Below, one piece after another: positions 32,295 to 51,725 of a stretch of DNA of 64,000 bases (positions are counted from its first letter, which is position 1; each line of letters opens with the position of its first letter). Made by a program: the position numbers and the translations under genes. Below the pieces are notes generated by a model. The model made no database searches. It was not told the origin of the DNA and saw nothing but the letters and a program-made list of their open reading frames with translations. Source of the stretch: Saccharopolyspora erythraea NRRL 2338 (lineage in GTDB: Bacteria > Actinomycetota > Actinomycetes > Mycobacteriales > Pseudonocardiaceae); the NCBI RefSeq assembly GCF_000062885.1, contig NC_009142.1, positions 8,111,584 to 8,175,583 on the forward strand, written 5' to 3'.

Positions 32295-32345
32295 CACTCT
32301 CCTCGCCGCGGCCTCCGGCTCCCCCGCGGCGCAGAATACCCCGCG

Positions 32346-32383
32346 CATCTGGATGTTCGCATCATCTGGATGTTGCTAACATC
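32346..32383. promoter_or_regulatory. Operator candidate between TetR gene and clpX paralogue
   Basis: CATCTGGATGTT occurs twice (32346-32357 and 32363-32374), and the second copy leads into GATGTT-GCT-AACATC (32369-32383), a perfect 15-bp interrupted palindrome. It sits 50-90 bp upstream of the TetR start and about 75 bp upstream of the clpX start, fitting TetR control of both genes. Confidence 0.55.
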
Positions 32384-32457
32384 GCGGAGGAATCCGTGGC
32401 CGACGCGGTGCTAGCGACGCGTTCGAGCCGTCCAGGCCCCCTTGAGGAGATCCCCGA

Positions 32458-33756
<1,299 letters not shown>

Positions 33757-33758
33757 CG

Positions 33759-34874
33759 CTATTGCCGGTGTCTCAGGCGCCAGAGCGAGGTCACCTCGGC
33801 GGAGCGCGCCGCGTGCAGCGGGTCGCCGGGGTCCCCGGCCCGCGGGTGCCTGGCGGGGACGTCGAGCCTGCCGGCGACTTCGAGGCCCGACTCGCGGATC
33901 CACTCCGACAACCGCGCCCGCGAGCGCAGGCCGAGGTGTTCGGCCAGGTCGGACAGCACGAGCCAGCCTTCGCCGCCGGGTTCCAGGTGGTCGGCGAGCC
34001 CCGCGAGGAAACCGCGGAGCATGCGGCTGCCCGGGTCGTACACCGCGTTCTCGATCGGCGTGGTCGGTTGAGCCGGGATCCACGGCGGGTTGCAGACGAC
34101 GAGCGCGGCGCGTCCGGCCGGGAAGAGGTCGGCTGCCTCGACCGAGACGCGGTCCGCGAAGCCCAGGCGTGCGATGTTCTCCCGCGCGCACGCCAGCGCG
34201 CGCGGGTCCTGGTCCGTCGCGACGATCCGTGCCACACCGCGGTGTGCCAGCACCGCCGCCAGGACACCGGTTCCGGTGCCGATGTCGAAGGCGACGCCGC
34301 CGGTGGGCAGGGCTGCGGTGGCGACCAGGTCGACGTACTCGCCGCGCACCGGGGCGAACACCCCGTAGTGCGGGTGGATTCTCGCGCCGAGCGCCGGGAC
34401 CTCGACGCCCTTGCGCCGCCATTCGCGCGCACCGATGACGCCGAGGAGCTCCCGCAACGACATCACGTACGGTTCCGGCGCCGGGCCGAGGACGTCCAGG
34501 CACGCCGCCCTGACGTCCGGTGCTCGCCGCAGCGGGACGACGTGGCCCGCGTCGACCGGCACCAGCAGCATTCCCAGCAGGCGAGCCCGCACGGCCTGCC
34601 GTTTCCGCTGCTGCTGGAAGGAAAAATCGCCCGGCCGACGGGCGTCCACGCGCCGTCGCAAGGCGTGCATGAGGTTGCGGGCGTTGTGGTAGTCCCCTCG
34701 CCAGAGGATCGCCGTGCCGTCGCGGACGTGGCGGTGCGCGGTGGACGCGGGCATGCGGTCGTCGGCCACGACCACGTGCCGGGGCGCGGCCTTTCCGCTC
34801 TCGGAAACCCAACGTGCGCAACGGAGTTCGCCGTCCTCGCTCCAGCGCAGGACGTCGCGGTGCTGACTGCTCAT
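33759..34874 (-). CDS. Class I SAM methyltransferase (HemK/PrmC-like fold)
   Basis: A 371-residue protein starting MSSQHRDVLRWSEDGEL. The C-terminal half is a Rossmann methyltransferase: AFDIGTGTGVLAAVLAHRGV (SAM motif I), RIVATDQDPRALACARENI, and NPPW (position of the NPPY substrate motif used by N-methyltransferases on amide or amino groups), then EGWLVLSDLAEHLGL. The N-terminal 170 residues (RWRGDYHNARNLMHALRRRV-like helical region) are a family-specific domain. Substrate unknown; protein or RNA amine methylation is plausible. Convergent with clpX, two bases apart. Confidence 0.85.
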   Translation of the reverse strand: MSSQHRDVLRWSEDGELRCARWVSESGKAAPRHVVVADDRMPASTAHRHVRDGTAILWRGDYHNARNLMHALRRRVDARRPGDFSFQQQRKRQAVRARLLGMLLVPVDAGHVVPLRRAPDVRAACLDVLGPAPEPYVMSLRELLGVIGAREWRRKGVEVPALGARIHPHYGVFAPVRGEYVDLVATAALPTGGVAFDIGTGTGVLAAVLAHRGVARIVATDQDPRALACARENIARLGFADRVSVEAADLFPAGRAALVVCNPPWIPAQPTTPIENAVYDPGSRMLRGFLAGLADHLEPGGEGWLVLSDLAEHLGLRSRARLSEWIRESGLEVAGRLDVPARHPRAGDPGDPLHAARSAEVTSLWRLRHRQ

Positions 34875-35049
34875 CAAGTCCGTTCCTGCTCGAACGCCCG
34901 GGTTTTCCGGGCGTGAGTGGGCAGCGCGTGAGCTTTGGTGCACACGCGCGGGAAGCGGAGCGGGATGCCGCTAGAACACCACCGAGGCGTGGCGCGGAGC
35001 AGTCATGAGCCGGGAGCGTAGTCGCGCGGTCAGCGGCGTGGGAACCGGA

Positions 35050-35994
35050 TTACGCGCCAGTGGCGCGGTGGACCCGGTCGGCCATCGCGCGCAGGTACTC
35101 GAGCAGTTCCGGCGGTTCGTGCACCTCGAACTCGCAGCCGAGCATCGTCAGCCGGAACGCCAGCCACTCCAGCGTGTCGGCGTTGCTGCGCAGCAGGCAG
35201 GAGTTCTCGTCGATCGCGGTCACGTCACCGAAGTAACCGCCGAACTGCTCGGCGGGCGCGTGCAGCGTCACCACGGCGTGGTAGGTCTCCGCGAGGCTGC
35301 GCAGCTTGTTCTTCACGTACGCGGCGGCGTCCTCGGCGGGCAGCTCGCGCGGGGCGGTCCGGGCGCCGGTCGCCAGCGGCCGTTCGATGCGGTCGACGCG
35401 GAAGATCCGCCAGTCGTCCCGGCCGTTGTCGTAGGCGACCAGGTACCAGCGGTGGCCGTAGGACACCAGGCGGTGCGGCTCCACCAGGCGGCTGCTCTCG
35501 GTGCCGTCACCGGTCCGGTAGGCGAAGCGCAGCTTCTCGTGGTTGGCGATCGTCGCGGCCAGCACGGCCAGGCCGTCCGGCTCGACGGTCGGCCCGTACC
35601 CCGGCACCCGCAGCGTCGCCTTGTTCAGCGCGCTCACCCGGTAGCGCAGCCTCGACGGAAGCACCTGCTCCAGCTTTGCCAGCGCCCGCACGGACGCCTC
35701 CTCGATCCCGGCGACGGCCTGCCCGGCCGCGGTGCGCAGCCCGACCGCGATGGCCACCGCCTCCTCGTCGTCGAGCAGCAGCGGCGGCATGGCCGAGCCC
35801 GCGACCAGGCGGTATCCGCCCGCCGCGCCCATCGTCGCCTCCACCGGGTAGCCGAGGTCGCGCAGCCGGTCGACGTCGCGGCGGATCGTGCGCGGGCTGA
35901 CCCCGAGGCGCTCGGCGAGCTCGCTGCCCGGCCACTCGCGCGGGGTCTGCAGGAGTGACAGCAGGCTCAGGAGACGTCCGGGCGTGTCGGTCAT
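35050..35994 (-). CDS. WYL-domain transcriptional regulator (YafY family)
   Basis: A 314-residue protein starting MTDTPGRLLSLLSLLQTPRE; ATG codons at 36006 and 36015 are also in frame. The N-terminal DeoR-like HTH reads ELAERLGVSPRTIRRDVDRL. The WYL domain is centred on VSYGHRWYLVAYDNGRDDWR with the H-x-W-Y-L-V core, and a C-terminal WCX-type domain follows (TLEWLAFRLTMLGCEFEVHE). WYL proteins sense nucleic acid or nucleotide ligands and control diverse genes. The adjacent GlxA-type regulator and quinone oxidoreductase are possible but unproven targets. Confidence 0.9.
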   Translation of the reverse strand: MTDTPGRLLSLLSLLQTPREWPGSELAERLGVSPRTIRRDVDRLRDLGYPVEATMGAAGGYRLVAGSAMPPLLLDDEEAVAIAVGLRTAAGQAVAGIEEASVRALAKLEQVLPSRLRYRVSALNKATLRVPGYGPTVEPDGLAVLAATIANHEKLRFAYRTGDGTESSRLVEPHRLVSYGHRWYLVAYDNGRDDWRIFRVDRIERPLATGARTAPRELPAEDAAAYVKNKLRSLAETYHAVVTLHAPAEQFGGYFGDVTAIDENSCLLRSNADTLEWLAFRLTMLGCEFEVHEPPELLEYLRAMADRVHRATGA

Positions 35995-36047
35995 GCGGTC
36001 GAGCATGCCAGGCATCTGGGCCGGGAACCGTCCTACATCGGCAAGCG

Positions 36048-36986
36048 TCAGCGGGTGGCGCGGAAGGTACGGCGGTAGGCCAGCGGTGAGACGCCGATGG
36101 CGGCGTGCATGTGCTGGCGCAGCGAGGTTGCGGTGGCGAAGCCGACCTGCTCGGCGACCTGGTCGATCCCGAGGTCGCTGGACTCGAGCAGGTGGCGGGC
36201 CTTGGACACGCGCTGCTGGATCAGCCACCGGCCGGGGCTGACGCCCACCTCGTCGCGGAAGCGGCGGGCGAACGTGCGCATGCTCATCCGCGCGTGCGCG
36301 GCGAGGTCGGCCAGCGCCAGCGGCGAGTGCAGGCGTTCCAGCGCCCACTGGCGGGTCGCCGCCGTGCCGGCGCCGGAGGGCTCGGGCACCGGCTGCTCGA
36401 TGTACTGCGCCTGACCGCCGTCGCGCCACGGCGGCACCACGCAGACCCGCGCCACCCAGTTGGCCACCTCGCTGCCGTGGTCGCTGCGCACGACGTGCAG
36501 GCAGACGTCCACACCGGACGCGGCGCCCGCGGAGGTCAGCACGTCGCCGTCGTCGATGAACAGCACGTCCGGATCGAGCGCCACCCGCGGGAACAGTCTC
36601 CGGAAGCGGTCGGCCAGCGCCCAGTGCGTCGTCGCCGGGCGGCCGTCGAGCAGCCCGGCCGCGGCGAGGACGAACGCGCCGGTGCAGATCGACACGATGC
36701 GCGTGCCGGGGCGGACGAGAGCGAGCGCGCCGGACAGCGGATCACTCAGCTCACCGTTGGCCAAAGCCATGTCGAACGGCGGGATCACGACGGTGTCGGC
36801 GGTGCCCAGGACCTCGGGGCCGTGCCGGACCGCGATGTCGAAGTCCGCGTCGCTGCGCACCGGCCGCCCGTCGACGGTGCAGGTGAGCACGTCGTAGCGG
36901 CCGTCGGCGGCCCCGAAGATCCGCTTCGGGATGCCGAGCTCGAACGGGTACACGCCCTCCAGCGCGAGGACGACCACTCGATGCAT
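36048..36986 (-). CDS. GlxA-type AraC-family regulator
   Basis: A 312-residue regulator. Residues 1-170 are a DJ-1/PfpI-like amidotransferase domain with VSICTGAFVLAAAGLLDGRPATTHW (split pattern: cysteine in the nucleophile elbow ICTGA, then ATTHW). Residues about 210-310 are an AraC HTH pair (LADLAAHARMSMRTFARRFR, VGVSPGRWLIQQRVSKARHL, VAEQVGFATATSLRQHM). It is divergent from the quinone oxidoreductase gene 71 bp away, which it may control. Confidence 0.92.
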   Translation of the reverse strand: MHRVVVLALEGVYPFELGIPKRIFGAADGRYDVLTCTVDGRPVRSDADFDIAVRHGPEVLGTADTVVIPPFDMALANGELSDPLSGALALVRPGTRIVSICTGAFVLAAAGLLDGRPATTHWALADRFRRLFPRVALDPDVLFIDDGDVLTSAGAASGVDVCLHVVRSDHGSEVANWVARVCVVPPWRDGGQAQYIEQPVPEPSGAGTAATRQWALERLHSPLALADLAAHARMSMRTFARRFRDEVGVSPGRWLIQQRVSKARHLLESSDLGIDQVAEQVGFATATSLRQHMHAAIGVSPLAYRRTFRATR

Positions 36987-37057
36987 GGCACGATCCTATC
37001 GAACAATGACCTTCCTGCCAGTTTTCGCACCCACCGGTAGCCGGGCAGCCTGGGGCC

Positions 37058-38011
37058 ATGAGCACAACGATGCGGGCGATCAGCCAGGACACCCTCGGCG
37101 GTCCCGAGGTCCTGAAGGAAGTGGAGCTCCCGCGGCCCGAACCGGGGCCCAGCGAGGTGCTGGTGCGGGTGCACGCGGCGGGCCTGAACCCGACCGACTG
37201 GAAGCACCGCGCCCACAAGCTGTTCCTCGGGCCGCCGCCGTTCGTCCTCGGCTGGGACGTCTCCGGCGTGGTCGAGGAGACCGGCACCGGCGTCACGCTC
37301 TTCAAGCCGGGCGACGAGGTGTTCGGCATGCTGCCCTACCCGCACGGCGTCGGCTCCCACGCCGAGTACGTCACCGGGCCGGCGCGCGCGTTCGCGCGCA
37401 AGCCGTCGCAGCTCGACCACGTGCAGGCGGCGGCGGTGCCGCTCGCGGCGCTGACCGCCTGGCAGGCCCTGGTCGACACCGCGCGGGTGCAGCCCGGCCA
37501 GCGGGTACTCGTCCACGCCGCCGCGGGCGGTGTCGGGCACATGGCGGTGCAGATCGCCAAGGCCCGCGGCGCGCACGTCATCGGCACGGCCAGCGAGGGC
37601 AAGCACGAGTTCCTGCGCGCCATCGGCGCCGACGAGCTGGTCGACTACCGCGAGGCCGACTTCGCCGACGTCGTCCGGGACGTCGACGTCGTGCTCGACA
37701 CCATCGCGGGCGACACCCGCACCCGGTCGCTGCGCACCCTGCGTCCCGGCGGCCTGCTGGTCTCGATCCTCCCGTACGGGAAGGACGAACTCGACGCCGA
37801 AGCGCAACGGCTCGGGGTCCGCGCCGAACTGCTGCTCGTCGAGGCCGACCACGCCGGGATGAACGCGATCGCCGACCTGGTCGAGCAGGGCGCGCTGCGT
37901 CCCAGGGTCGAGGCGACGTTCACCATGCCCGAGATCCGCAAGGCGCACGAAGCCGGAGAAACCGGTCGCACGACCGGGAAACTGGTACTCGTGGTCCGCG
38001 ACGACGTATAG
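37058..38011 (+). CDS. NADP-dependent quinone oxidoreductase (MDR family)
   Basis: A 317-residue medium-chain dehydrogenase/reductase starting MSTTMRAISQDTLGGPEVL. It has the GroES-like fold (NPTDWKHRAHKL, GWDVSGVVEETG) and the Rossmann motif VLVHAAAGGVGHMAVQIAKA that binds NADP. Structural and catalytic zinc ligands are absent, as in zinc-independent quinone reductases. It probably reduces quinones or enones. It is divergent from the GlxA-type regulator, a pairing that suggests regulation by it. Confidence 0.92.
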   Translation: MSTTMRAISQDTLGGPEVLKEVELPRPEPGPSEVLVRVHAAGLNPTDWKHRAHKLFLGPPPFVLGWDVSGVVEETGTGVTLFKPGDEVFGMLPYPHGVGSHAEYVTGPARAFARKPSQLDHVQAAAVPLAALTAWQALVDTARVQPGQRVLVHAAAGGVGHMAVQIAKARGAHVIGTASEGKHEFLRAIGADELVDYREADFADVVRDVDVVLDTIAGDTRTRSLRTLRPGGLLVSILPYGKDELDAEAQRLGVRAELLLVEADHAGMNAIADLVEQGALRPRVEATFTMPEIRKAHEAGETGRTTGKLVLVVRDDV

Positions 38012-38022
38012 CGTTGTCGCCC

Positions 38023-38670
38023 GTGACCGAACCCTCGCACCTGACCATCACCAGGGCGGCTTACGACGCCATCGCCGTCGACTACGCCCAGCACTTCCGG
38101 GCCGAGCCGAGCAACGCGTTCGGCCGGGCGATGCTCGGGGCGTTCGCCGAGCTGGTGCGGGGTTCGGGTCCGGTCGCCGACCTCGGTTGCGGGCCCGGCA
38201 ACGTCACGGCCCACCTGCACTCGCTCGGGCTCGACGTCTTCGGCGTCGACCTGTCGCCCAAGACCGTCGAGAACGCGCGGCGGCTGCACCCGGACCTGCG
38301 GTTCGACGTGGGGTCGATGACCGAGCTGGCGCTGGCCGACGGCGCACTCGGCGGCATCGTCGCCTGGTACTCGGTCATCCACACCCCGCAGGAGCTGCTG
38401 CCGGAGTTGTTCGCCGAGTTCCACCGGCTGCTGGCGCCGGGCGGCCACGTGCTGCTCGCGTTCCAGGTCGGCGACCAGCCGTTGCACCTGGCCGAGGCGT
38501 GGGGTCACCGGATCGGCCTGGACTTCCGGCGGTTGTCCCCCGACCACATCACCGAACTGCTCGAACAGGCCGGATTCGCGGTGGCGGCCCGGCTGGTGCG
38601 CGAGCCCGACCCCGCCGAGGCGCCCGCCGAGCCGGTGCCGCAGGCGCACCTGCTGGCCCGGCGGTCGTAG
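38023..38670 (+). CDS. Class I SAM-dependent methyltransferase
   Basis: A 215-residue methyltransferase with GTG start at 38023, 11 bp after the oxidoreductase gene. Motif I is VADLGCGPGNVTAHLHSLG, acidic motif II FGVDLSPKTVENAR, and VAWYSVIHTPQELLPE fits motif IV. The C-terminal FRRLSPDHITELLEQAGF is typical of small-molecule methyltransferases. The substrate cannot be deduced. It is probably co-transcribed with the upstream oxidoreductase. Confidence 0.9.
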   Translation: MTEPSHLTITRAAYDAIAVDYAQHFRAEPSNAFGRAMLGAFAELVRGSGPVADLGCGPGNVTAHLHSLGLDVFGVDLSPKTVENARRLHPDLRFDVGSMTELALADGALGGIVAWYSVIHTPQELLPELFAEFHRLLAPGGHVLLAFQVGDQPLHLAEAWGHRIGLDFRRLSPDHITELLEQAGFAVAARLVREPDPAEAPAEPVPQAHLLARRS

Positions 38671-38693
38671 CGGGTCGGCCTGCCGGAGCGCCG

Positions 38694-39296
38694 CTACCGC
38701 AGGCGTCGTGCTCGCAGGACGATGTCGTTGGTGTGCTGCGTGCCCGCGGGTGCCGGAGCGGTTCGTGGACGGGTTTCGTCGACCAGGACGGTCCAGCTGT
38801 CGTCGAGGAGCTCGGCGATGTCGTCGGGCTGGTAGTAGTCGCCGGGGTCGAAGCCGTGCTCGTTGTCCGGGGGCACGTCGGCCGGGTCGTGGCTGGCGAA
38901 GAGGAGGGTGCCGCCGGGTGCGACGGCGGCCAGCAGGCCGCGGAGCGCGATGTGGTCCGGCTCGTGCCGGAGCGGGAAGTACTGCACGGACACCAGGTCG
39001 AACGCGTCGGCCGGTGGTGGCGTGGTGGTCAGATCGCCGTGCGTCCACGCCACGCGACCGGTGACGTCCGTACCGGCCGCGGCAGCGCGTCGCAGGGCGA
39101 CGCGGGACACGTCGACCGCGGTGACCTGCCAGCCGCGCCGGGCCAGCCACAACGCGTCGGCGCCTTCACCGCAGCCCACGTCGAGCGCCTGCCCCGGCGG
39201 CGTGCCGGCGATCTCGGTGACGAGCACCCCGTTGGGGTTGCCGCTGAAGAGCTGGTCGCGGCCGCTGTACAGGTCGTCCCAGAACTGTGCGTCCAT
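38694..39296 (-). CDS. Class I SAM-dependent methyltransferase
   Basis: A 200-residue methyltransferase starting MDAQFWDDLYSGRDQLFSGN, with AAGGA five bases before the ATG. The GNPNGVLVTEI and LDVGCGEGADALWLARRGW (motif I) segments match the tellurite-resistance-like/thiopurine-type methyltransferases common in actinobacteria. It lies 18 bp after the remnant FAD oxidoreductase gene. In related genomes this methyltransferase, an FAD oxidoreductase and a divergent XRE-cupin regulator form a unit (recalled association), so it probably acts with an oxidoreductase that is broken here. Confidence 0.9.
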   Translation of the reverse strand: MDAQFWDDLYSGRDQLFSGNPNGVLVTEIAGTPPGQALDVGCGEGADALWLARRGWQVTAVDVSRVALRRAAAAGTDVTGRVAWTHGDLTTTPPPADAFDLVSVQYFPLRHEPDHIALRGLLAAVAPGGTLLFASHDPADVPPDNEHGFDPGDYYQPDDIAELLDDSWTVLVDETRPRTAPAPAGTQHTNDIVLRARRLR

Positions 39297-39314
39297 TTGT
39301 CCTTACCTCGCTGG

Positions 39315-39629
39315 TCAGTTGTTGTTGAGCAGGCCGTGGCGCCGGTCGCCGACGACCTGTGGGCAGATGCGGGCTTCCGACTCCGGTGAGAAGGGATCGC
39401 GCCGGGTCTCAACGGCGCGGCGGGTGTCCTCGGCGATCAGGTCGGCGTTGATCGCACTCGCCGCCGCGGAGCCGGACGCGGCTGCCGCGAGGACGTTCGC
39501 GGCGGGATCGGCGAGGTCGCCCGCGACCCGCACTCCAGCGCCCGGAGCGGGATCAGCTCGCCGGTGCACAGCCGGCCCACCACCGACGATCACCACGTCA
39601 TACCGGCTGTTCCGGGACTCCTGGGTCAT
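39315..39629 (-). pseudogene. FAD-dependent oxidoreductase with in-frame internal deletion
   Basis: The 104-codon frame starts at an ATG with GGAGG eight bases upstream and begins MTQESRNSRYDVVIVGGGPA, the FAD-binding GxGxxG start of thioredoxin-reductase-like enzymes. After about 20 residues it jumps to GVRVAGDLADPAANVLAAA and SAINADLIAEDTRRAVE, the C-terminal FAD-binding region of the same family. The intact enzyme is about 310 residues, so roughly 200 middle residues, including the NADPH domain and redox region, are missing without loss of frame. The product cannot be a functional reductase. Confidence 0.82.
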
Positions 39630-39674
39630 CGCGACCACCTCCGGCACCAACCTGCCCCCGCCGAGGGTGAACCG

Positions 39675-39700
39675 GCAAAGTTCTTTGCTGGAAGTGCAAA
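39675..39700. promoter_or_regulatory. Three GCAAA half-sites in divergent promoter
   Basis: GCAAAG-TT-CTTTGC (39675-39688) is a perfect inverted repeat, and a third GCAAA lies at 39696-39700. The cluster sits between the FAD oxidoreductase remnant and the XRE-cupin regulator, 20-45 bp before the regulator start, fitting an autoregulatory operator. Confidence 0.5.
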
Positions 39701-39720
39701 ACGTTCGGCACAGTGGAGGT

Positions 39721-40305
39721 ATGAGCGACGAGTTCGACACCGTGCTCAGCGCCGTCGGCCCGCGACTCCGTGCGCTCCGCCGCCGCAGCGGCGCGACCCT
39801 GACCGCCCTGTCGGAGACCACCGGCATTCCGGTCAGCACGCTTTCCCGGCTGGAGTCCGGGCACCGCAAACCGGGCCTGGAACTGCTGCTGCCGCTGGCG
39901 AATGCGTACCAGGTGCCGCTCGACGAACTCGTCGGCGCACCGGCCAGCGGCGATCCCCGGGTGCATCCCCGTCCGATCACCCGCAACGGCATGACCGTGA
40001 TCCCGCTGACCCGCAAACCCGGTGGTTTGCAGGCGTTCAAGCAGATCCTCCCGGCCGGACCCACCGACGTCGAACCCGATCCCCGCTCGCACGAGGGCTA
40101 TCACTGGCTGTACGTCCTCAACGGGCGGCTGCGCCTGGTGCTCGGCGACCAGGACCTGGTCCTGACCGCCGGCGAGGTCGCCGAGTTCGACACCCACCTC
40201 CCGCACTGGTTCGGCAACGCCGGCACCCAGCCGGTCGAGTACCTGAGCATCCTCGGGCCGCAGGGCGAGCGCTTCCACATCAGAGCCCGCCCCCGACGCG
40301 CCTGA
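39721..40305 (+). CDS. XRE-family regulator with C-terminal cupin
   Basis: A 194-residue regulator. The XRE HTH covers about residues 12-68 (RLRALRRRSGATLTALSETT, IPVSTLSRLESGHRKPGLEL). The cupin sensor covers about 95-190, with HEGYHWLYVLNGRLRLVLGD and the FDTHLPHWFGNAG motif 2 holding histidines. A GGAGG directly abuts the ATG, so initiation may be leaderless. It is divergent from the FAD oxidoreductase remnant/methyltransferase unit, which it presumably regulates; the half-site cluster lies between them. Confidence 0.92.
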   Translation: MSDEFDTVLSAVGPRLRALRRRSGATLTALSETTGIPVSTLSRLESGHRKPGLELLLPLANAYQVPLDELVGAPASGDPRVHPRPITRNGMTVIPLTRKPGGLQAFKQILPAGPTDVEPDPRSHEGYHWLYVLNGRLRLVLGDQDLVLTAGEVAEFDTHLPHWFGNAGTQPVEYLSILGPQGERFHIRARPRRA

Positions 40306-40375
40306 CCGATGCACCTTTCCCGCCGGGACAGCAAAATCGGTCGCATCGGCGTTCGGCGCGTACTACACAGGGCGG

Positions 40376-41377
40376 ATGGCCGATCCCCACCCGCTTCGTC
40401 CCATCACCGACGACGAGTTCGAAGCCTGGGCTCGGATGATCGCCGACACCTACGGCATGGACCGCTCCGACGCGGAGATCGTCAACCAGCGCGCGGCCAC
40501 CGACCTGGATCGCACCATCGCCGCGTTCGACCAGGAAGTCCCTGTTGGAGGCGTTTCCCTCTATCCCCGGGTCCTGACCGTCCCCGGCGCACTCGTGCCC
40601 GTCGCGGGCGTCGCCTCGGTCGGCGTGGCTCCGACGCACCGGCGCCGTGGAATCCTCACCGCGATGATGCGTCGGCAGCTCGCCGACCTGCACGAGCAGG
40701 GCCGTGAACCGGTTGCCGTGCTACGTCCTTCCGAAGCCGCGATCTACGGTCGCTACGGCTACGGCCCCGCCACGCAGGGGAACCGAATCCGTTGCGAGAA
40801 GCGCTCCATGTCCTTCCGCCCCGGCACGGGCTTCGGCGAGGGAACGGTCCGGCTGGTCGATCGTGCTCAGGCACGCCCGTTGATCGAGAAGGTCTACGAC
40901 CAGGTCAGAGCGTCCTCGGTCGGTTGGCCGGACCGAGCCGACTGCCATTGGAACGTGCGTCTCTTCGACGAGGCATACGCACGCGGCGGCACGACCTCGC
41001 TGCGATTCGCCCTGCACCAGGAACCGGACGGTCAGGCCACCGGCTATGTCTGCTACCGGCACAAAGGCGGACAGGACGCGCTGGGCAACGACAGCAGCGC
41101 GGTTCTGGTCGAGGAGCTGGCAGCGGTCTCGCGTTCCGCCTACGCCGCGCTGTGGCGCTTCCTCGCCGGTATCGACCTGGTGCGGTGGATCGAATACGAG
41201 GGCGCCGTGGACGAACCGTTGCCGCACATGCTGGCGGACCAGGTCCGGCGGGAGCCGGGTGAGGCTGCCGAAACTGGGGAGAAGATCCAGCCACTCGTCC
41301 CGGGTGCAGGACCACTCCCAGTCGAAGCTCCACTGCTCGGGTGCGCTGAACGCGCCTGCCCGCCTGAGCTGACGTAG
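40376..41377 (+). pseudogene. Eis-like GNAT acetyltransferase, C-terminally truncated
   Basis: Residues 1-288 match the Eis-type tandem-GNAT family: VAGVASVGVAPTHRRRGIL (acetyl-CoA loop), LRPSEAAIYGRYGYGPAT, and RWIEYEGAVDEPLPHMLAD. The family continues for about 120 residues into a sterol-carrier-like domain with the catalytic C-terminal carboxylate. Here the homology stops near 41238 and the frame runs on through antisense methyltransferase and metallo-beta-lactamase fragments (46 unrelated residues) to a stop at 41377. The first two domains might fold, but the missing terminus makes acetylation activity unlikely. Confidence 0.78.
41240..41370 (-). pseudogene. Methyltransferase C-terminal fragment
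   Basis: The minus-strand frame reads LRRAGAFSAPEQW, FDWEWSCTRDEWLDLLPSFG and LTRLPPDLV with no start or stop of its own. FDWE-x-x-x-TRDEWLD-x-L-P is characteristic of the C-terminal part of a large class I methyltransferase family in actinobacteria (recognised from memory). Only about 44 codons remain, joined to the Eis fragment at about 41238 and to the metallo-beta-lactamase fragment at about 41370. Confidence 0.6.
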
Positions 41378-41820
41378 ACCGTGGGCAGATCCTCGGCGGT
41401 CAGGACGAAGCCGACGACCTCCCCGGTGATCGCTTCGACCTCCTCGCGCGGTCCGGGGCCGTGGAGGGCGGGCACGCCGGTGACGGTGAGCGTGCCGCCG
41501 TCGGGGCGGTCCAGCTCGATCGACTCCCAGTCGGCCAGTCCCCTGGCCCGCTCGCCCAGGCGGCGCCCGCCGCCGGGCGTGGTGAGGGTGAGCGGGACGT
41601 CGGCGAGCAGCGCGCGTCCGGAGTGGTCGAGGTTGTCGGCGTGCTCGTCGTGGGAAAGCAGGACCACGTCGACACGGCCCAGGTCGGCGGGGGTGCCGTC
41701 GGCAGGGGCGGTCTTGGTCAGGACGGCGCCGCTGGGCGTCGGGTAGTCGCCGGGGGCGTCGAAGGTCGGGTCGGTCAGGAACCGCAGGCCGCCGTACTCG
41801 AAGAGGGCGGTCGGGCCGCC
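41368..41820 (-). pseudogene. Metallo-beta-lactamase-fold protein fragment
   Basis: The frame reads GGPTALFEYGGLRFLTDPTF, VDVVLLSHDEHADNLDHSG and VTGVPALHGPGPREEVEAIT, the UlaG/metal-dependent hydrolase pattern with the H-D-E-H-x-D zinc motif. It then reads LPTVYVS and ends. Both ends are cut: homology begins at GGPTALFEYGG without a start codon and stops before the second metal-binding half. The flanks are unrelated gene fragments, so the enzyme is dead. Confidence 0.75.
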
Positions 41821-42279
41821 GAACAGTGGCTCGTCGACCGCGGCCTCGCTCCCGTCGACACCGGCATGATGGAGATGTGCGCCACCCTGTTGCGCTCCCT
41901 GCGCGAGCAGGTCCGGGCCCTCCTCGCCGCCCACACCGCCGGCCGGCCCGCCCCCGACGGGGCGCTGGCCGCCGTCAACGACGCGCTCACCCGCGCCCCC
42001 GCGGCCTCCCTGCTCCGCTGGGACCCGGCCCGCGGCCTCTACCGCGAGACCGCCCACCCCACCACGCAGATCGTCGAGCACGCCCTGGCCGTGCTCGCCG
42101 CCGACACCGCGGACCTGCTCACGAGCCCCGACGCCGAACGCCTCACCGCCTGCGCCTCCACCCCCTGCAGCCGCTACCTGCTGCGCACCGGACGCCGCCA
42201 CTGGTGCTCCACTCGCTGCGGTGACCGCGCCCGCGCCGCCCGCGCCTACGCCCGCCGCACCCAGGCCACAACGAGCTGA
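41821..42279 (+). pseudogene. CGNR zinc-finger protein, N-terminally truncated
   Basis: From 41821 the frame reads EQWLVDRGLAPVDTGMMEMC, LLRSLREQVRALLAAHTAG and ends with the CGNR-type zinc finger LTACASTPCSRYLLRTGRR plus HWCSTRCGDRARAARAYARR. CGNR proteins are about 190 residues with an N-terminal ABATE domain; here the first 50 or so residues are replaced by the metallo-beta-lactamase fragment. Translation could still start at ATG 41866 (137 codons), keeping the zinc finger. These proteins are presumed stress-linked regulators. Confidence 0.7.
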
Positions 42280-42398
42280 ACGGACAGCCGAAACCCGGCA
42301 GCCGTTCTGCAGGTCTCGAATTCGTGGCACTTCTTCGCGAGTTGTGGCCGTGCGACTGGTCGGCTGTGCCTGCGTCCGTGCTGATCTAATGTGCCGCC

Positions 42399-42887
42399 AT
42401 GGCGCTCAACCTCCGGCCGCTCGCGCTCGACGACGTCGCTGCCGTGCACGACTGGGCCCGCTTGCCGGAGTCGTGCCGCTTCCAGGCGTGGGGACCCAAC
42501 ACTTACGACCAGACGCGGGCATATGTGCGGGCCGCGGTCGCGGCACCTCCGAACCGGCTGGTGTTCGGGGTCCTCGTCGACGGCGACGTTGTGGGCACTG
42601 CCGAACTGAAGCTGCACGGCCCGAGCACCGGCGAGATCGCGTACGCGGTGCATCCACGGCTGTGGGGCAAGGGCATAGCTACGGCTGCGGCGCGAGAGCT
42701 GTTGCGCATGGGCTTCGGCGAGCACGGGCGGCACCGCATGTTCGGCACCTGCGACCCGCGCAACCTCGCCTCGGCGGCGGTGTTGCGCAAGATCGGCATG
42801 CGGTACGAGGGCCGGATGCGGGGTACGGCGTACGTTCGCGATGGCTGGCGCGATTCGGACCTGTACGCGATCCTCGCCGACGACTGA
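42399..42887 (+). CDS. GNAT acetyltransferase (RimJ/RimL-like)
   Basis: A 162-residue acetyltransferase starting MALNLRPLALDDVAAVHDWA. Core motifs are ELKLHGPSTGEIAYAVHPRLW, GKGIATAAARELLRMGFGEH (acetyl-CoA pyrophosphate loop) and GTCDPRNLASAAVLRKIGM, the N-x-x-S-x-x-x-x-x-K-x-G-F/M pattern of RimJ/RimL-type enzymes. The substrate may be a protein N-terminus or a small amine. It is convergent with dnaB, 36 bp away. Confidence 0.9.
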   Translation: MALNLRPLALDDVAAVHDWARLPESCRFQAWGPNTYDQTRAYVRAAVAAPPNRLVFGVLVDGDVVGTAELKLHGPSTGEIAYAVHPRLWGKGIATAAARELLRMGFGEHGRHRMFGTCDPRNLASAAVLRKIGMRYEGRMRGTAYVRDGWRDSDLYAILADD

Positions 42888-42923
42888 TCCCCGGCTGCAC
42901 CGATCCCCCGGCAGCGCCCGACG

Positions 42924-44318
42924 CTATTCCTGGGCCATGTCCACGAAACGGCTGTAGTGCAGCTGGTGGGCCACGGTGATGGTCGACGTCGGACCGGCGC
43001 GGTGCTTGGCCAGGATCAGGTCCGCCTCGCCCATGCGCGGGTCGTCGCGCTCGAAGGCGTCGGGGCGGTGGATCAGTATGACCATGTCGGCGTCCTGCTC
43101 CAGCGAACCCGACTCGCGCAGGTCCGAAAGCTGCGGCTTCTTGTCCGTGCGCTGTTCGGGACCTCGGTTGAGCTGCGAGATCGCCACCACCGGCACCTCG
43201 AGCTCCTTGGCCAGCAGCTTGAGGTTACGCGAGAACTCCGAGACCTCCTGCTGACGCGACTCGACGCGCTTGCCCGAGGTCATCAGCTGCATGTAGTCGA
43301 CCACGATGAGCTGGATGTCGTTGCGCTGCTTGAGCCTGCGGGCCTTCGCGCGGATCTCCATCATCGTCAGGTTCGGCGAGTCGTCGACGAACAGCGGCGC
43401 CTCGCTGATCTCGCTCATCCGCCGCGCCAGCCGCGTCCAGTCGTCGTCGGTCATCCGGCCGCCGCGCATGTCGCCGAGCCGGATCCGGGCCTCTGCCGAG
43501 AGCATTCGCATCACGATCTCGGTCTTGCCCATCTCCAGGGAGAAGATGACGCTGGCCAGGCCGTGCTTGATCGACGCCGACCGGGCGAAGTCCAGTCCAA
43601 GCGTCGACTTGCCCACACCGGGTCGAGCCGCGACGATGATCATCTGGCCCGGGTGCAGGCCGTTCGTGACGGCGTCGAGGTCGGTGAAGCCGGTCGGGAT
43701 GCCCAGGGACTCGCCGCCGCGGGAGGCGATGGCGTCGATCTCGTCCATGGTGGGCTGCAGGAGGTCCTCGAGGGCGGCGTAGTCCTCGCTTGTCCTGCGC
43801 TCGGTGACGTCGTAGATCGCGGCCTGCGCGCGGTCGACGACCTCCTCGATCGGCGAGCCCTCCGAACCGTGGTAGCCGAGCTGCACGATGCGCGTGCCGG
43901 CCTCGACCAGCCGACGCAGCAACGCCTTCTCGGCGACGATCTCGGCGTAGTAGCCCGCGTTCGCTGCGGTCGGCACCGTCGCGATGAGGGTGTGCATGTA
44001 CGGGGCGCCGCCGACGCGCAGCAGTTCCTGCCTGCGGTCGAGCTCGGCGGAGACGGTGATCGCGTCGGCGGGCTCACCGCGCCCGTACAGGTCGAGGACG
44101 CAGTCGTAGATGGCCTGGTGGGCCGGCCGGTAGAAGTCGTTGGGCCGCAGCACTTCCACGACGTCGGCGATGGCGTCCTTGCTCAGCATCATGCCGCCGA
44201 GGACGGACTGCTCGGCGGCGATGTCCTGCGGGGGCTGACGTTCGAACGACCCGTCGTAGTTCGCGGATCCGCCGCCGCCGGGGGAAGGTTCGGCTCCTCG
44301 TTCGTCGGCCAACGTCAC
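42924..44318 (-). CDS. dnaB: Replicative DNA helicase DnaB
   Basis: A 464-residue helicase starting at GTG 44318 (VTLADERGAEP). The N-terminal domain has PQDIAAEQSVLGGMMLSKDA; the RecA-like domain has GLHPGQMIIVAARPGVGKST (Walker A) and LIVVDYMQLM (Walker B). The C-terminus carries SQLNRGPEQRTDKKPQLSDL and ESGSLEQDAD, the arginine-finger and sensor region. DnaB unwinds the fork as a hexamer. No intein interrupts it, unlike M. tuberculosis dnaB. It follows the rpsF-ssb-rpsR-rplI unit, separated by a 610-bp region with DnaA-box-like repeats. Confidence 0.97.
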   Translation of the reverse strand: MTLADERGAEPSPGGGGSANYDGSFERQPPQDIAAEQSVLGGMMLSKDAIADVVEVLRPNDFYRPAHQAIYDCVLDLYGRGEPADAITVSAELDRRQELLRVGGAPYMHTLIATVPTAANAGYYAEIVAEKALLRRLVEAGTRIVQLGYHGSEGSPIEEVVDRAQAAIYDVTERRTSEDYAALEDLLQPTMDEIDAIASRGGESLGIPTGFTDLDAVTNGLHPGQMIIVAARPGVGKSTLGLDFARSASIKHGLASVIFSLEMGKTEIVMRMLSAEARIRLGDMRGGRMTDDDWTRLARRMSEISEAPLFVDDSPNLTMMEIRAKARRLKQRNDIQLIVVDYMQLMTSGKRVESRQQEVSEFSRNLKLLAKELEVPVVAISQLNRGPEQRTDKKPQLSDLRESGSLEQDADMVILIHRPDAFERDDPRMGEADLILAKHRAGPTSTITVAHQLHYSRFVDMAQE

Positions 44319-44928
44319 CGGTACCTGACACCTCCTCGAGGACCACCGCGCCGGGCGCGACGCGATGAGGCGACCTGTGCGCACGACAGGTCATGTGCCC
44401 GGGCACGACGCCGATGCCGACCCGTGCAGCCGTCGGACGCAGTCTGGCGCGCGAGCGCTCAAGATCACTCGCAGTTGCGACACCACACGCGCGGAGAAGC
44501 TAGATCGCCCGCTTGGAGCAGGCAAGCCGAGCTGTGGACAAACCCCGGGACAACCTGTGGACAGCTTGTGGAAGCCTGGGGACAACTGTCCCCCAGGCTG
44601 CTGGACCGCTGGGGACAACCTGGGGACAACCGGTCAAGATCGACCAGAAACCCCAGCTCAGCGGGTGTGTGCAAGCTGTGGAAGAAATCCGGGGAAAACT
44701 CTCGGCGTGTCGCGAGCGAGCTCGTTCTTCGGCGTGTCGGAACGCGATACGTCTACCAGGTCGGGAGTGACCAGGACTACGTCATCAGGGTGACGACGCC
44801 CCCGTATGGATCAAGAAGGACCAGAACGGGGGCGCCATCCGCGAAACCCGGCGGGGTGCCGGTCCGGTCGAGCCCGGGGACCGGCATCATCCGCTCGATC
44901 GCCGCCGACGACGGCCGGCGGCGTCCGT
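44319..44928. other. 610-bp intergenic region, dnaB to rplI
   Basis: No gene is supported here. The dnaB leader is next to 44319. 44533-44690 contains a dense set of DnaA-box-like sequences, and 44798-44833 holds an 8-bp-arm hairpin (GCCCCCGT/ACGGGGGC, 20-base loop) that may help terminate the rplI transcript. The rplI stop is at 44929. Confidence 0.65.
44533..44684. promoter_or_regulatory. Cluster of DnaA-box-like sequences
   Basis: TGTGGACAA at 44533-44541 is an exact DnaA box (TTGTCCACA on the minus strand). TGTGGACAG at 44556 differs at one end base. TGGGGACAA at 44577, 44610 and 44621 differs by one base, and TGTGGAAG occurs at 44567 and 44677. Seven near-boxes in 152 bp, mostly in the same orientation, are far denser than expected by chance. 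The cluster lies upstream of dnaB (minus strand). Confidence 0.6.
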
Positions 44929-45381
44929 TCAGCTCGCGGCGGAGATCTGAACGCTGACCGACGCCTTGACGTCGGGGTGCAGGCGCACGTCGACGGCGTG
45001 CTTGCCCAGGGACTTGATGTGCCCGCGGGTGTCGACCGAGCGCTTGTCCAGGTTCGGGCCACCGGCCTTGCGCACCGCGGAGACGATGTCGGCGGCGGTG
45101 ATCGAACCGAACAGCTTGCCCTGCTTGGAGACCTTGGCGGTCAGCGTGACCGCGCCCAGGCCCTGCAGCTGCTGCTTGAGCTCCTGGGCGTGCTCCAGGT
45201 TGCGGACCCGCTTGGCCTCCTGGGTGCGGCGGATCGTCTCGACCTGCTTCTGCGCACCCTTGGTGGCCACGATCGCCAGGCCGCGGGGCAGCAGCAGGTT
45301 GCGGGCGTAGCCGTCCTTGACCTCGACGATGTCGCCGGACTCGCCGAGGCCGGTCACGTCAGCGGTGAGGATGATCTTCAC
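44929..45381 (-). CDS. rplI: 50S ribosomal protein bL9
   Basis: A 150-residue protein with a GTG start 45381 ([20 protein letters not shown]) preceded by AAGGAG. The family signature is [19 protein letters not shown], followed by the long central helix ([20 protein letters not shown]) and the C-terminal RNA-binding domain ([19 protein letters not shown]). bL9 binds 23S rRNA at the base of the L1 stalk. It is the last gene of the rpsF-ssb-rpsR-rplI operon, 20 bp after rpsR. Confidence 0.97.
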
Positions 45382-45401
45382 GACGTGTCTCCTTCCAGCG
45401 A

Positions 45402-45641
45402 TCAGCGAGCGGTCGAGGTGTAGGGCAGCAGCGCCATCTCGCGGGCGTTCTTCACCGCGATGGCGACGTCGCGCTGGTGCTGGCTGCAGTTGCCGGTCAC
45501 GCGACGGGCACGGATCTTGCCGCGGTCGGAGATGTACTTCCGCAGCAGCGTCGTGTCCTTGTAGTCGATGCTCTGCGCGGCCTTGTCCTTGCAGAACACG
45601 CAGACCTTCTTCTTCGGCTTGCGCACGGGCGCCTTGGCCAT
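45402..45641 (-). CDS. rpsR: 30S ribosomal protein bS18
   Basis: A 79-residue protein ([20 protein letters not shown]) with AGGAGGA seven bases upstream. It has the S18 core [20 protein letters not shown] and [20 protein letters not shown]. The CVFC pair and the later cysteine give the zinc-binding (C+) form of S18 found in actinobacterial rpsR1. It sits in the middle of the ribosomal/ssb operon. Confidence 0.97.
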
Positions 45642-45691
45642 CGGTCTTCCTCCTGAGCGAAAACTTCTGTCTTTGGTGCGGGGTGGCGCCG

Positions 45692-46171
45692 TCAGAAAGG
45701 CGGCTCGTCGCTGAACCCGCCGCCGGAACCGGCAGGCGGGGCCGAGCCCCACGGGTCGTCCGCGGGCGGGGCGCCCCCACCGGGGCCGCCGAACCCGCCA
45801 CCGCTGCGGCTGACCTTGTTGACCTTCGCGGTCGCGTAGCGCAGCGAGGGGCCGATCTCGTCGACCTCCAGCTCGACGACGGTGCGCTTCTCGCCTTCCT
45901 TCGTCTCGAAGGAACGCTGGCGCAGCCGGCCCTGCACGACCACCCGCATGCCGCGGGTGAGCGACTCGGCGACGTTCTCCGCCGCCTGCCGCCAGATGTT
46001 GCAGCGCAGGAACAGCGCCTCGCCGTCCTTCCACTCGCCGGTCTGGCGGTCGAACGTCCGGGGGGTGGAGGCGACCGTGAAGTTCGCGACCGCGGCGCCG
46101 GACGGGGTGAAGCGCAGTTCCGGATCGGCGGTCAGGTTGCCGACCACCGTGATTACCGTTTCACCAGCCAT
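45692..46171 (-). CDS. ssb: Single-stranded DNA-binding protein
   Basis: A 159-residue SSB starting [20 protein letters not shown]. The OB fold covers about residues 1-115 ([60 protein letters not shown]). It is followed by a short Gly/Pro-rich linker and the acidic C-terminal tip SDEPPF, which binds DnaB-loading and repair partners. The second gene of the operon, 59 bp after rpsF. Confidence 0.97.
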
Positions 46172-46230
46172 CGCCTGGGACTCCAGCTCTCCTAGATGCG
46201 GGCTCGCCTGCTAGCTGCGCGCGGCGCAGG

Positions 46231-46587
46231 TCAGACGGACGCCTCGGGACGGTTCTTGGCCTTGGCAGCGGCACGGGCGACGCGGGCGGCCTTGCGCGGC
46301 TCCACGACGCGGCGCAGCACCTTGGTCCGCAGCACCGTCTCGTTGAGGTTCAGCTGGCGGTCGAGCTCCTTGACGGAGGCCGGCTCGCTGTTGAGGTCGA
46401 GGACCACGTAGATGCCCTCGGCCTGCTTGTCGATCTCGTAGGCGAGCCGACGGCGACCCCAGACGTCGACCTTCTCGACGCTGCCACCGTCGTTGCGGAT
46501 GACGTTGAGGAAGTTTTCCAGTGACGGAGCGACAGTGCGCTCGTCCAGGCTCGGGTCGAGGATGACCATGAGCTCGTAATGACGCAT
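46231..46587 (-). CDS. rpsF: 30S ribosomal protein bS6
   Basis: A 118-residue protein starting [17 protein letters not shown]; the SD AGGAGGTGA lies nine bases upstream, and GTG 46596 is too close to it. Family segments are [20 protein letters not shown] and [20 protein letters not shown]. bS6 forms a heterodimer with bS18 on the 30S platform. First gene of the operon with ssb, rpsR and rplI. Confidence 0.97.
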
Positions 46588-46748
46588 GAAGACCACTCAC
46601 CTCCTGTGGACTCACGGCCACGGGCTCTCCGTGGCAGGAGGGTCGTCGCGTCGACGAACCGTTCAAAGGTAGCAAGGGCGCCCGACAGGCCTCACCCGGG
46701 GCCTCACGCCGCAGGTCATGGCCGGTCCGCGGCCGAACCCGCCCCTGG

Positions 46749-47711
46749 TCACTGCCTCCGCAGGACCCACGTGCGCACGAGCGCGGCGGTCAGTCCGGCG
46801 ATCGAGACAGCCGCCAGCAGCACCGGCAGGGCCACCCGGTCGCCGCCGGTGGTGGGCAGGGCCTCGGCGTTGCCGACGGCGCGGACCTGCTCCTGCTCGC
46901 GCTGCTTCTGCTGCTGCTCGGCCCACGGCCTGGTCAGCGTGCCGACGTCGGGTGTGAAGCCGGGCACCTGGCCGTAGCGGGCCCACGGCGGCAGCGAGCC
47001 GGGCACGTAGGAGTAGTTGCCGGGCACCGCCCGGTAAGGCGCGGCGGCGCCCTGCGCGGCGTACGCCTCGGGCGGTAACGGCGCGCCGGGAGGCGGGGCC
47101 TGCACGTCGTCGCTGGTCGGCGTCTCGGACGGCACGGTCTGCGGCGGAGGCGGCGCGGGCTGCGGATCCGGGGCGGGCGCGGGCGGCGGCGGGGGAGGCG
47201 GTTCTTCCGGCGCCTCGGCGTTGACGGTGACGGCGTTGCCGATGCTCACCAGGTTGCCGAAGTGCCAGCTGACCGCGTCGACCTTGTCCTCGGGCAGGCC
47301 GAGCTGGGCGATGCGGGGCTTGGCGGCCCGGGCGATGTCCCCGCCGGAGTAGAAGGTGCGGCCCTCCCCGGCGGTGCCCAGCGGGATCGGCGGCAGCTCG
47401 CGGAACCGCTCGACGGCGTCGGCGGCCGCACCGAAGTCCAGCGGCATCGCCAGCAGCACCGCCTCGCGGACCTTGAGGTCCATGGTCGACGGCGACAGCG
47501 CGACCGACTGGCCGACCACGGCGTCGACCACCGCCAGCGAGCGGTCGACGACCAGCGTGTCGGCGGCGGCGGCGGTGCCCGCGCCGAGGAACGTGCTCGC
47601 GGTGATCGCCAGCCCGACCAGCCCGGCGGCGGCGCCGCGTCTGGCCCGCCGCACCAGCGGGTTGGGCCTGCCGTCGCACCCCCGCGCGTCCGGTGCCGAT
47701 CCTTCACCCAT
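46749..47711 (-). CDS. Secreted proline-rich protein with LPTTG sorting signal
   Basis: A 320-residue protein. A signal peptide covers about residues 15-50 (RRARRGAAAGLVGLAITAST, cleavage after GTAAAA). A folded region to about 170 follows (TLVVDRSLAVVDAVVGQSVA, FYSGGDIARAAKPRIAQLGL). A long Pro-rich stretch (EEPPPPPPPAPAPDPQPA) precedes the C-terminal sorting signal: LPTTG, a hydrophobic span (VALPVLLAAVSIAGLTAALV) and the basic tail RTWVLRRQ. It would be anchored by a class E/F-type sortase to peptidoglycan. The folded part is not recognised. It lies just downstream of the ribosomal operon's opposite side and is divergent from nfo. Confidence 0.85.
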   Translation of the reverse strand: MGEGSAPDARGCDGRPNPLVRRARRGAAAGLVGLAITASTFLGAGTAAAADTLVVDRSLAVVDAVVGQSVALSPSTMDLKVREAVLLAMPLDFGAAADAVERFRELPPIPLGTAGEGRTFYSGGDIARAAKPRIAQLGLPEDKVDAVSWHFGNLVSIGNAVTVNAEAPEEPPPPPPPAPAPDPQPAPPPPQTVPSETPTSDDVQAPPPGAPLPPEAYAAQGAAAPYRAVPGNYSYVPGSLPPWARYGQVPGFTPDVGTLTRPWAEQQQKQREQEQVRAVGNAEALPTTGGDRVALPVLLAAVSIAGLTAALVRTWVLRRQ

Positions 47712-47840
47712 GGCGAGACCTCCCCTGCGCTCCGGCGCACGAACACCGTCGACCTTCTCAGAGGGATCAACTGCGCAACACCCTCGAGGTGATGCGTCAG
47801 GGCCGAATTCGGCGGAAATCCCACGATCTAAGCTGGGCCC

Positions 47841-48611
47841 ATGCGCATCGGTGCCCACGTCCGCGACGACGATCCCGTGTCCGCCGCCGCCGAGCGCGGC
47901 GCCGAGGTCGTCCAGTTCTTCCTGTCCGACCCCCAGGGCTGGAAGGCCCCGAAGCCGCACCCGCAGGCCGACGAGCTGCGCGAGAGCGACCTGGCGGTGT
48001 TCATCCACTCCCCGTACGTGATCAACGTGGCGTCGCTGAACAACCGGATCCGCATCCCGTCCCGCAAGCTGGTCACCCAGCACGCGAAGGCCGCGGCGGC
48101 GGTCGGCGCGCAGGGCCTGGTGGTGCACGGCGGGCACGTGACCAAGGACGACGACCCGGCCGAGGGCGTGGCGAACTGGCGCAAGATGTTCGAGCGCCAG
48201 GCCGACGAGGGCGGCTTCGAGGTGCCGGTGCTGATCGAGAACACCGCGGGCGGGGCCAACGCGATGGCCCGCCGGTTCGACGCGCTGGCCCGGCTGTGGG
48301 ACGCGGTCGGCGAGTTCGGCGCGGGGTTCTGCCTGGACACCTGCCACGCGCACGCCGCGGGCGAGGAACTGCTCGACGTCGTCGACCGGGTCAAGACGAT
48401 CACCGGCCGGATCGACCTGGTGCACCTCAACGACTCCCGGGACGGCTTCGGCTCGTCGCGGGACCGCCACGCCAACATCGGCGCCGGGGAGATCGACCCG
48501 GAGCTGCTGGTCGCGGTCTGCTCCAGCGCCGGAGCCCCGGTCGTCGTGGAGACGCCGGGCGAGGGCCAGGCCGACGACATCGCCTACCTGCGCGAGCGCT
48601 GCCCGTCGTGA
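47841..48611 (+). CDS. nfo: Deoxyribonuclease IV (endonuclease IV)
   Basis: A 256-residue TIM-barrel AP endonuclease starting MRIGAHVRDDDPVSAAAERG. Metal-ligand motifs are FIHSPYVINVAS, GLVVHGGHV (His), VLIENTAGG (Glu), FCLDTCHAHAAG (Asp-x-x-His) and LVHLNDSRDGFGSSRDRHAN with the IGAGEI end. It cleaves abasic sites through three zinc ions in base excision repair. Slightly shorter than E. coli Nfo (285 residues). It is transcribed toward the GT87 gene. Confidence 0.94.
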   Translation: MRIGAHVRDDDPVSAAAERGAEVVQFFLSDPQGWKAPKPHPQADELRESDLAVFIHSPYVINVASLNNRIRIPSRKLVTQHAKAAAAVGAQGLVVHGGHVTKDDDPAEGVANWRKMFERQADEGGFEVPVLIENTAGGANAMARRFDALARLWDAVGEFGAGFCLDTCHAHAAGEELLDVVDRVKTITGRIDLVHLNDSRDGFGSSRDRHANIGAGEIDPELLVAVCSSAGAPVVVETPGEGQADDIAYLRERCPS

Positions 48612-48655
48612 CGCCTCGCGCCGCGCGGCGCGGACGCCCTGCACCGGACCCACCC

Positions 48656-48669
48656 AGGAGGTCGCCATC
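48656..48669 (+). promoter_or_regulatory. SD positioned on an AUC codon
   Basis: AGGAGGT (48656-48662) is a near-perfect SD. The codon at normal distance is ATC at 48667-48669, in frame with the glycosyltransferase; the first ATG in frame (48700) is 38 bases away and has no SD of its own. Non-AUG start at ATC is rare but known in bacteria. Confidence 0.5.
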
Positions 48670-48699
48670 AGCACTGCGGGCGCCGGCCGACGGCTGACG

Positions 48700-49995: not shown

Positions 49996-49998
49996 CGG

Positions 49999-51621: not shown

Positions 51622-51725
51622 GCCCCGGGATGCTACGGCGTTGGAACGCCGACGACCCCTGGGCGGGTGGATCACGCCACCTCGGCCCAGGGGTCGTCCT
51701 GCTCAGCCGCGCCGATCGCGCGGGG

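Follow-up and report, generated by a model that had tools for sequence, protein, structure and literature searches.

Remnants of four genes in the dnaB flank

Saccharopolyspora erythraea is the producer of erythromycin, and the stretch of its chromosome considered here (the window, 64,000 nucleotides; G000:C1:8111584-8175583) lies on a single contig of 8,212,805 bp. The region 40300-42900 was searched against the organism's own genome (G000) and 40 relatives, with G001 as the sole same-genus genome compared, and the results below hold among the matches listed by these searches. The dnaB gene occupies a syntenic place in G001 and serves as the conserved anchor of the locus; past it lie genes which, from their translations, we take to be ssb, rpsR and rplI. 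On comparison of the sequences, the other side of dnaB is best described as a scar, in which remnants of four genes and pieces of different origin lie side by side. The features are as follows.

40376-41240, plus strand: Eis-type (GNAT) acetyltransferase gene, 3'-truncated (G001 comparison, Pfam)
41238-41240: junction 1, acetyltransferase to filler, 3-bp overlap (ACC) of the exact match runs
41238-41367, minus strand: filler, an internal and C-terminal part of a class I SAM methyltransferase gene (exact ectopic copy)
41367-41368: junction 2, filler to metallo-beta-lactamase-fold fragment, 0-bp overlap
41368-41823, minus strand: metallo-beta-lactamase-fold (Lactamase_B_2) gene with both ends missing (G001 comparison, Pfam)
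41818-41823: junction 3, 6-bp microhomology (GCCGAA) in an imperfect 11-bp repeat
41818-42279, plus strand: ABATE/CGNR zinc-finger regulator gene lacking about 55 N-terminal codons of 211 (G001 comparison, Pfam)
42275-42312: 38 bp of mixed or unassigned origin (search, alignments, repeat family)
42399-42887, plus strand: intact GNAT acetyltransferase gene adjoining dnaB (G290 neighbour, orthologue survey)
42924-44384, minus strand: dnaB

The initial annotation, made from the letters of the window, had already recognised four partial genes at these places, and its borders prove right to a precision of a few bases. Agreement of the acetyltransferase with G001 ends at 41240 (earlier placed at about 41238), the methyltransferase piece occupies 41238-41367 (earlier 41240-41370), the metallo-beta-lactamase-fold piece 41368-41823 (earlier 41368-41820), and the CGNR gene, correctly described as lacking its N-terminus, is exact from 41818 (earlier 41821) and proves complete at its other end except for the last few codons. 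The intact parents that were sought have been found for all four genes: those of the acetyltransferase, metallo-beta-lactamase-fold and CGNR genes in G001, and that of the methyltransferase in both G000 and G001.

The stretch 40323-41240 matches G001 at 8.18 Mb with 92% DNA identity and diverges after 41240. The acetyltransferase gene is complete in G001 (8180572.., 415 codons from the start chosen), of which the window copy represents about 287. Acetyltransf_9 and Acetyltransf_17 are retained, and the SCP2_2 domain, present at 306-405 in the G001 protein, is absent from the window frame (Pfam). The set of domains expected of a functional Eis-type enzyme (two GNAT domains and an SCP2-like C-terminal domain) is hence incomplete in the window; the name Eis itself is that of the initial annotation and presumptive. 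Two weak matches cross junction 1 among the matches listed for the 40 other genomes, and both were rejected as instances of the same mosaic. The one in G001 (1.98 Mb, 69%, about 150 bp) belongs to an acetyltransferase paralogue with 40% identity over 392 of 415 residues; the one in G021 (39 bp, 90%) falls in a place devoid of any acetyltransferase match. Junction 2 is crossed by no match among those listed for the same genomes. Occurrence of an identical mosaic in many genera, which would have spoken against a rearrangement, was thus not encountered among the matches listed for the 40 other genomes.

The metallo-beta-lactamase-fold and CGNR remnants derive their interpretation from a second place in G001. 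The segment 41368-41823 shows 95% DNA identity to G001:C1:6101993-6102448, and 41813-42274 shows 95% to G001:C1:6101267-6101728. Relative to G001, about 19 N-terminal codons (start codon assumed) and 93 C-terminal codons of the metallo-beta-lactamase-fold gene are missing, and the Lactamase_B_2 profile is covered over 2-139 of 200 in the hybrid frame of the window versus 2-199 in the G001 gene (Pfam), so that the complete domain expected of a functional hydrolase of this fold is lacking. The CGNR remnant keeps residues 51-130 of the 130 of ABATE together with zf-CGNR (Pfam). Both genes are divergent neighbours in G001 (6.10 Mb), and the divergent pair recurs in five of the eight other relatives' loci that have the metallo-beta-lactamase-fold gene, as well as in G311; the remaining three of the eight show no CGNR match within about 1.5 kb per side. 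By the comparison coordinates, 275 bp have been lost at junction 3 relative to G001, with GCCGAA retained once; a single copy of a short direct repeat is kept and the DNA between is gone, which is the pattern of a microhomology-mediated deletion. Such short-repeat deletions form a familiar class, and junction 3, with its exact 6-bp homology inside the imperfect repeat, resembles them and shows nothing unusual. From base composition, the probability of a chance overlap is 0.08 for at least 3 bp and 0.004 for at least 6 bp. The several captured fragments proposed earlier are therefore unneeded for this part of the scar: the two remnants are a natural divergent pair fused by one 275-bp deletion.

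The remnants differ from their G001 counterparts by 37 synonymous and 30 nonsynonymous changes for the acetyltransferase (276 codons), 13 and 9 for the metallo-beta-lactamase-fold gene (150 codons compared, no stops), and 14 and 8 for the CGNR gene (152 codons compared, no stops). The lack of stops and the slight synonymous excess give no sign of long decay.

An exact copy of a methyltransferase gene segment

The filler (41238-41367) is identical at 130 of 130 positions to G000:C1:4691108-4691237, 3.46 Mb away. In G000 and G001 alike, the donor gene is open over 279 codons; it carries methyltransferase domains (Pfam) and sits in an 11-kb stretch that is collinear with G001 at 93%. Since the donor gene is intact elsewhere, the filler has been copied in and is not the stump of a local gene. 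The view that the four genes are joined with no filler must accordingly be given up, as the methyltransferase piece is itself the filler. In a control, 20 kb of the window (32001-52000) compared with the own genome gave 22 ectopic matches listed (40 of 1577 first-look candidates scored), and the other 21 were at most 84% identical; the identity of the filler is far beyond chance. Only one other copy of the filler is listed in G000, and it lies within a gene. No pair of flanking repeats, as would attend transposition or gene-cassette insertion, is present around 41238-41367. At the junction, no hairpin was found as a break site (DNA fold z-score 0.07), nor were there informative repeats.

The full identity of filler and donor allows the event to be dated. 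These two show 0 differences in 130, whereas the orthologues of G000 and G001 differ at 12 of 130 positions (the filler is 91% identical to the G001 orthologue at 3.94 Mb), and the 95% bound on the divergence of the filler is 2.3% as against 9.2% for the orthologues. Given equal rates and no conversion, the event would be no older than roughly the most recent quarter of the time since the split from G001.

Order of genes around dnaB

In G001, three other genes lie between the acetyltransferase and dnaB, which from their sequences we take to be an HxlR-type regulator, a RidA-type gene and methionine aminopeptidase (map). The map gene adjoins dnaB in G001 and lies on the same side at a distance of 1.6 kb in G059 and 6.4 kb in G290. 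No map is found beside dnaB in the window, the nearest match listed in G000 being an 83% relative at 3.08 Mb, and this absence is consistent with loss here. A scan for acetyltransferase homologues yielded 63 loci, in four of which (three Kitasatospora and one Streptomyces) a distant homologue lies about 0.2 to 0.8 kb from dnaB, suggesting that the neighbourhood is old. In a fifth locus (L097) dnaB is about 10 kb off, and the 21 kb of L068, the sole Saccharopolyspora among the 63, contain no match to dnaB. Of 15 outgroup loci that extend 6 to 7 kb downstream of dnaB, one (G059) has map and none has the acetyltransferase; in G290, no acetyltransferase match lies within 11 kb. On this evidence the G001 order is probably closer to the ancestral one, which is only inferred, as one same-genus genome was compared.

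Upstream of the scar, the window stretches 38027-38228, 38396-38694, 39448-39582 and 39877-40010 are without counterpart or diverged in G001, one of them falling inside an XRE/cupin-like regulator gene (judged by eye). These stretches mark the dnaB flank as indel-rich.

On the dnaB side of the scar, the segment 42313-42887, containing the intact GNAT gene, matches G001 at 4.90 Mb with 89% identity. The gene adjoins dnaB also in G290, which belongs to another genus, and close orthologues occur in five of 297 family genomes (G000 included), at 86-89% identity across genera. This distribution points to a travelling gene, which is probably an older neighbour of dnaB independent of the scar. Its reading as a further captured shard was rejected as the default, since G290 has the gene at the same place by dnaB and likewise oriented. 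Next to the site occupied by the GNAT gene in G001, G000 has an IS630-like transposase gene (by eye; L057 8228-9340, G000:C1 about 3716727-3717839) beside an alpha/beta hydrolase gene; the transposase gene is not at that place in G001.

A search of G000 and G001 with the 38 bp preceding the GNAT segment, extended by a base on either side and allowing up to three mismatches, retrieved only the query itself. Aligned with six candidate stretches, neither these 38 bp nor the 32 bp before dnaB (42888-42919) scored higher than the top of 30 shuffled sequences. At their right end, the 38 bp may preserve what is left of a repeat of about 107 bp that accompanies the GNAT gene in relatives.

This repeat, with a TTTGAGAC-containing motif near each end, lies beside small genes in several genomes of the family, its location varying. 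It is seen on both sides of the GNAT gene in G311 and (in part) in G290 and on one side in G001; in G000 it flanks one side of a pair formed by a WYL regulator and a VOC gene (names by eye). The repeat looks cassette- or MITE-like, and what stands upstream of the GNAT gene in the window seems to be a collapsed copy. The copies are located as follows.

Window: 42308-42340
L175: 73-179 and 837-944
L024: 4599-4706
L180: 8971-9016 and 9664-9713
L057: 7168-7276
L168: 3126-3174

Origin of the scar

Taken together, the locus is probably an error-prone end-joining scar with captured chromosomal DNA, accompanied by a short-repeat deletion. The genome encodes three Ku proteins and has four matches to LigD_Prim-Pol (the polymerase domain, by which LigD-type genes were judged here), one of them about 0.5 kb from a Ku gene. 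The insert comes from a distant chromosomal site whose original is intact, and the joints of the filler show little or no homology (3 bp and 0 bp). An exact insert, a surviving donor, loss of flanking DNA and such joints are, by analogy, the marks expected of Ku/LigD end joining. The illegitimate end joining with capture of fragments that was suggested at the outset is hence upheld for the 130-bp piece.

From these observations we infer a break, the enzymes, an order of events and a loss of DNA in the S. erythraea lineage. One or two double-strand breaks would have opened a variable stretch beside dnaB, with loss of the 3' end of the acetyltransferase gene and of whatever lay between it and the metallo-beta-lactamase-fold gene. 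The ends would then have been sealed by error-prone end joining, most likely by Ku/LigD, and a 130-bp chromosomal piece would have been caught in the joint; as the donor gene survived, the piece would have been copied, or taken from another copy of the chromosome in the mycelium. A second lesion, the 275-bp deletion at the short imperfect repeat, would have joined the metallo-beta-lactamase-fold gene to its divergent neighbour, the CGNR gene, at the cost of the DNA between both starts, where the promoters should lie, leaving a cluster of dead gene remnants. Against this explanation, the metallo-beta-lactamase-fold/CGNR pair lies elsewhere in G001, and its arrival beside dnaB is not accounted for.

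The closest likeness is found in Streptomyces ambofaciens. Among the scars left by I-SceI breaks in this organism, Hoff et al. (2018; PMC5869714) describe five insertion events in all, of 30 bp to 18.8 kb. The small inserts measured 42 and 83 bp, both with sources close to the cut, and 30 bp, with its source in a distant transposase gene; microhomology of 1-6 nt was seen in half of the scars, and mutagenic repair was nearly gone without KuA and gone without LigC/LigD. Short inserts from the own chromosome, loss of ends, microhomology and several Ku genes, as described there (PMC5869714), are shared with S. erythraea; the origin of two of the three small inserts near the cut counts against a likeness in long-distance capture. 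Unlike those scars, the one described here is natural, fixed and read from sequence, and its insert is 130 bp long from 3.46 Mb away. In human cells, as described in the available part of another study (PMC5087911), ectopic chromosomal sequence was captured at the junction of distant breaks, much like the filler, although the setting is eukaryotic and the enzymes are different. Among the titles listed by literature searches, none dealt with the dnaB-side locus or with natural ectopic filler in Saccharopolyspora. The scar looks like a natural fossil of a known process and not a new system.

Among the alternatives, replication template switching (FoSTeS/MMBIR-like) fares best and is nonetheless unlikely. 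A stalled fork would have copied the 130 bp and resumed in the metallo-beta-lactamase-fold gene, leaving much the same marks as end joining, and the intact, exactly copied donor and the 3-bp overlap at one joint suit it; the second joint of the filler, with no overlap, and the 3.46 Mb between donor and target do not. A single catastrophic repair event that trapped the filler together with the metallo-beta-lactamase-fold/CGNR piece and the GNAT gene is rather more doubtful. The pair and the GNAT gene do lie at two other, separate places in G001, and G000 is without them there. However, the surroundings of both pieces in G001 themselves vary between G000 and G001, and the GNAT gene, patchy in occurrence and found beside dnaB in G290, behaves as a travelling gene does. 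The broader form of this view, with the dnaB flank as a multi-fragment repair from three places and a bacterial counterpart of localised chromosome shattering, seems quite improbable; if true, non-homologous end joining (NHEJ) would contribute measurably to the relocation and loss of genes in actinobacteria. An assembly or cloning chimera, by which the 130 bp would be an artefact of the reference sequence, is highly improbable: the scar is known from one assembly, but two false joins inside unique sequence would be needed, the other matches listed in G000 for the parts flanking the filler being only 68-74% identical, or 82% over 44 bp. In the accessible part of the E3 genome paper, moreover, the largest difference from the reference is an 11-kb prophage-like deletion, E3 having been compared with the same reference.

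Selection for the hybrid frames as functional fusion genes, in line with the novel fusion proteins considered possible in the initial annotation, is hardly credible: frames of 333 (plus) and 396 (minus) codons do span the joints, and neither the metallo-beta-lactamase-fold nor the CGNR remnant has a stop in the codons compared, but long chance frames on both strands are usual in high-GC DNA (37000-46000 is overlapped by 68 frames of 40 aa or more), and start regions as well as the SCP2 domain have been lost. The acetyltransferase frame gains a tail of about 45 residues, read from the strand opposite to that of the methyltransferase frame, and the frame of the metallo-beta-lactamase-fold gene enters the filler out of register with the native frame of that segment. 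No native frame runs through the filler, which makes functional fusions unlikely. By their sequences, the four remnants are most likely pseudogenes.

As a fixed natural example, the probable end-joining scar indicates that end joining with captured filler can mark evolution and inactivate genes. Furthermore, the filler provides a search rule, namely short exact ectopic duplications at synteny breakpoints, and a genome-wide count by this rule in Ku-positive versus Ku-negative genomes would gauge the role of NHEJ in actinobacterial genomes.

Apart from the scar, the dnaB gene of G001 is split by an intein-like insert (L022 7724-9225), which the window dnaB lacks, and in many other genomes of the family (uncounted) the match to dnaB is interrupted at that same point, near residue 260.
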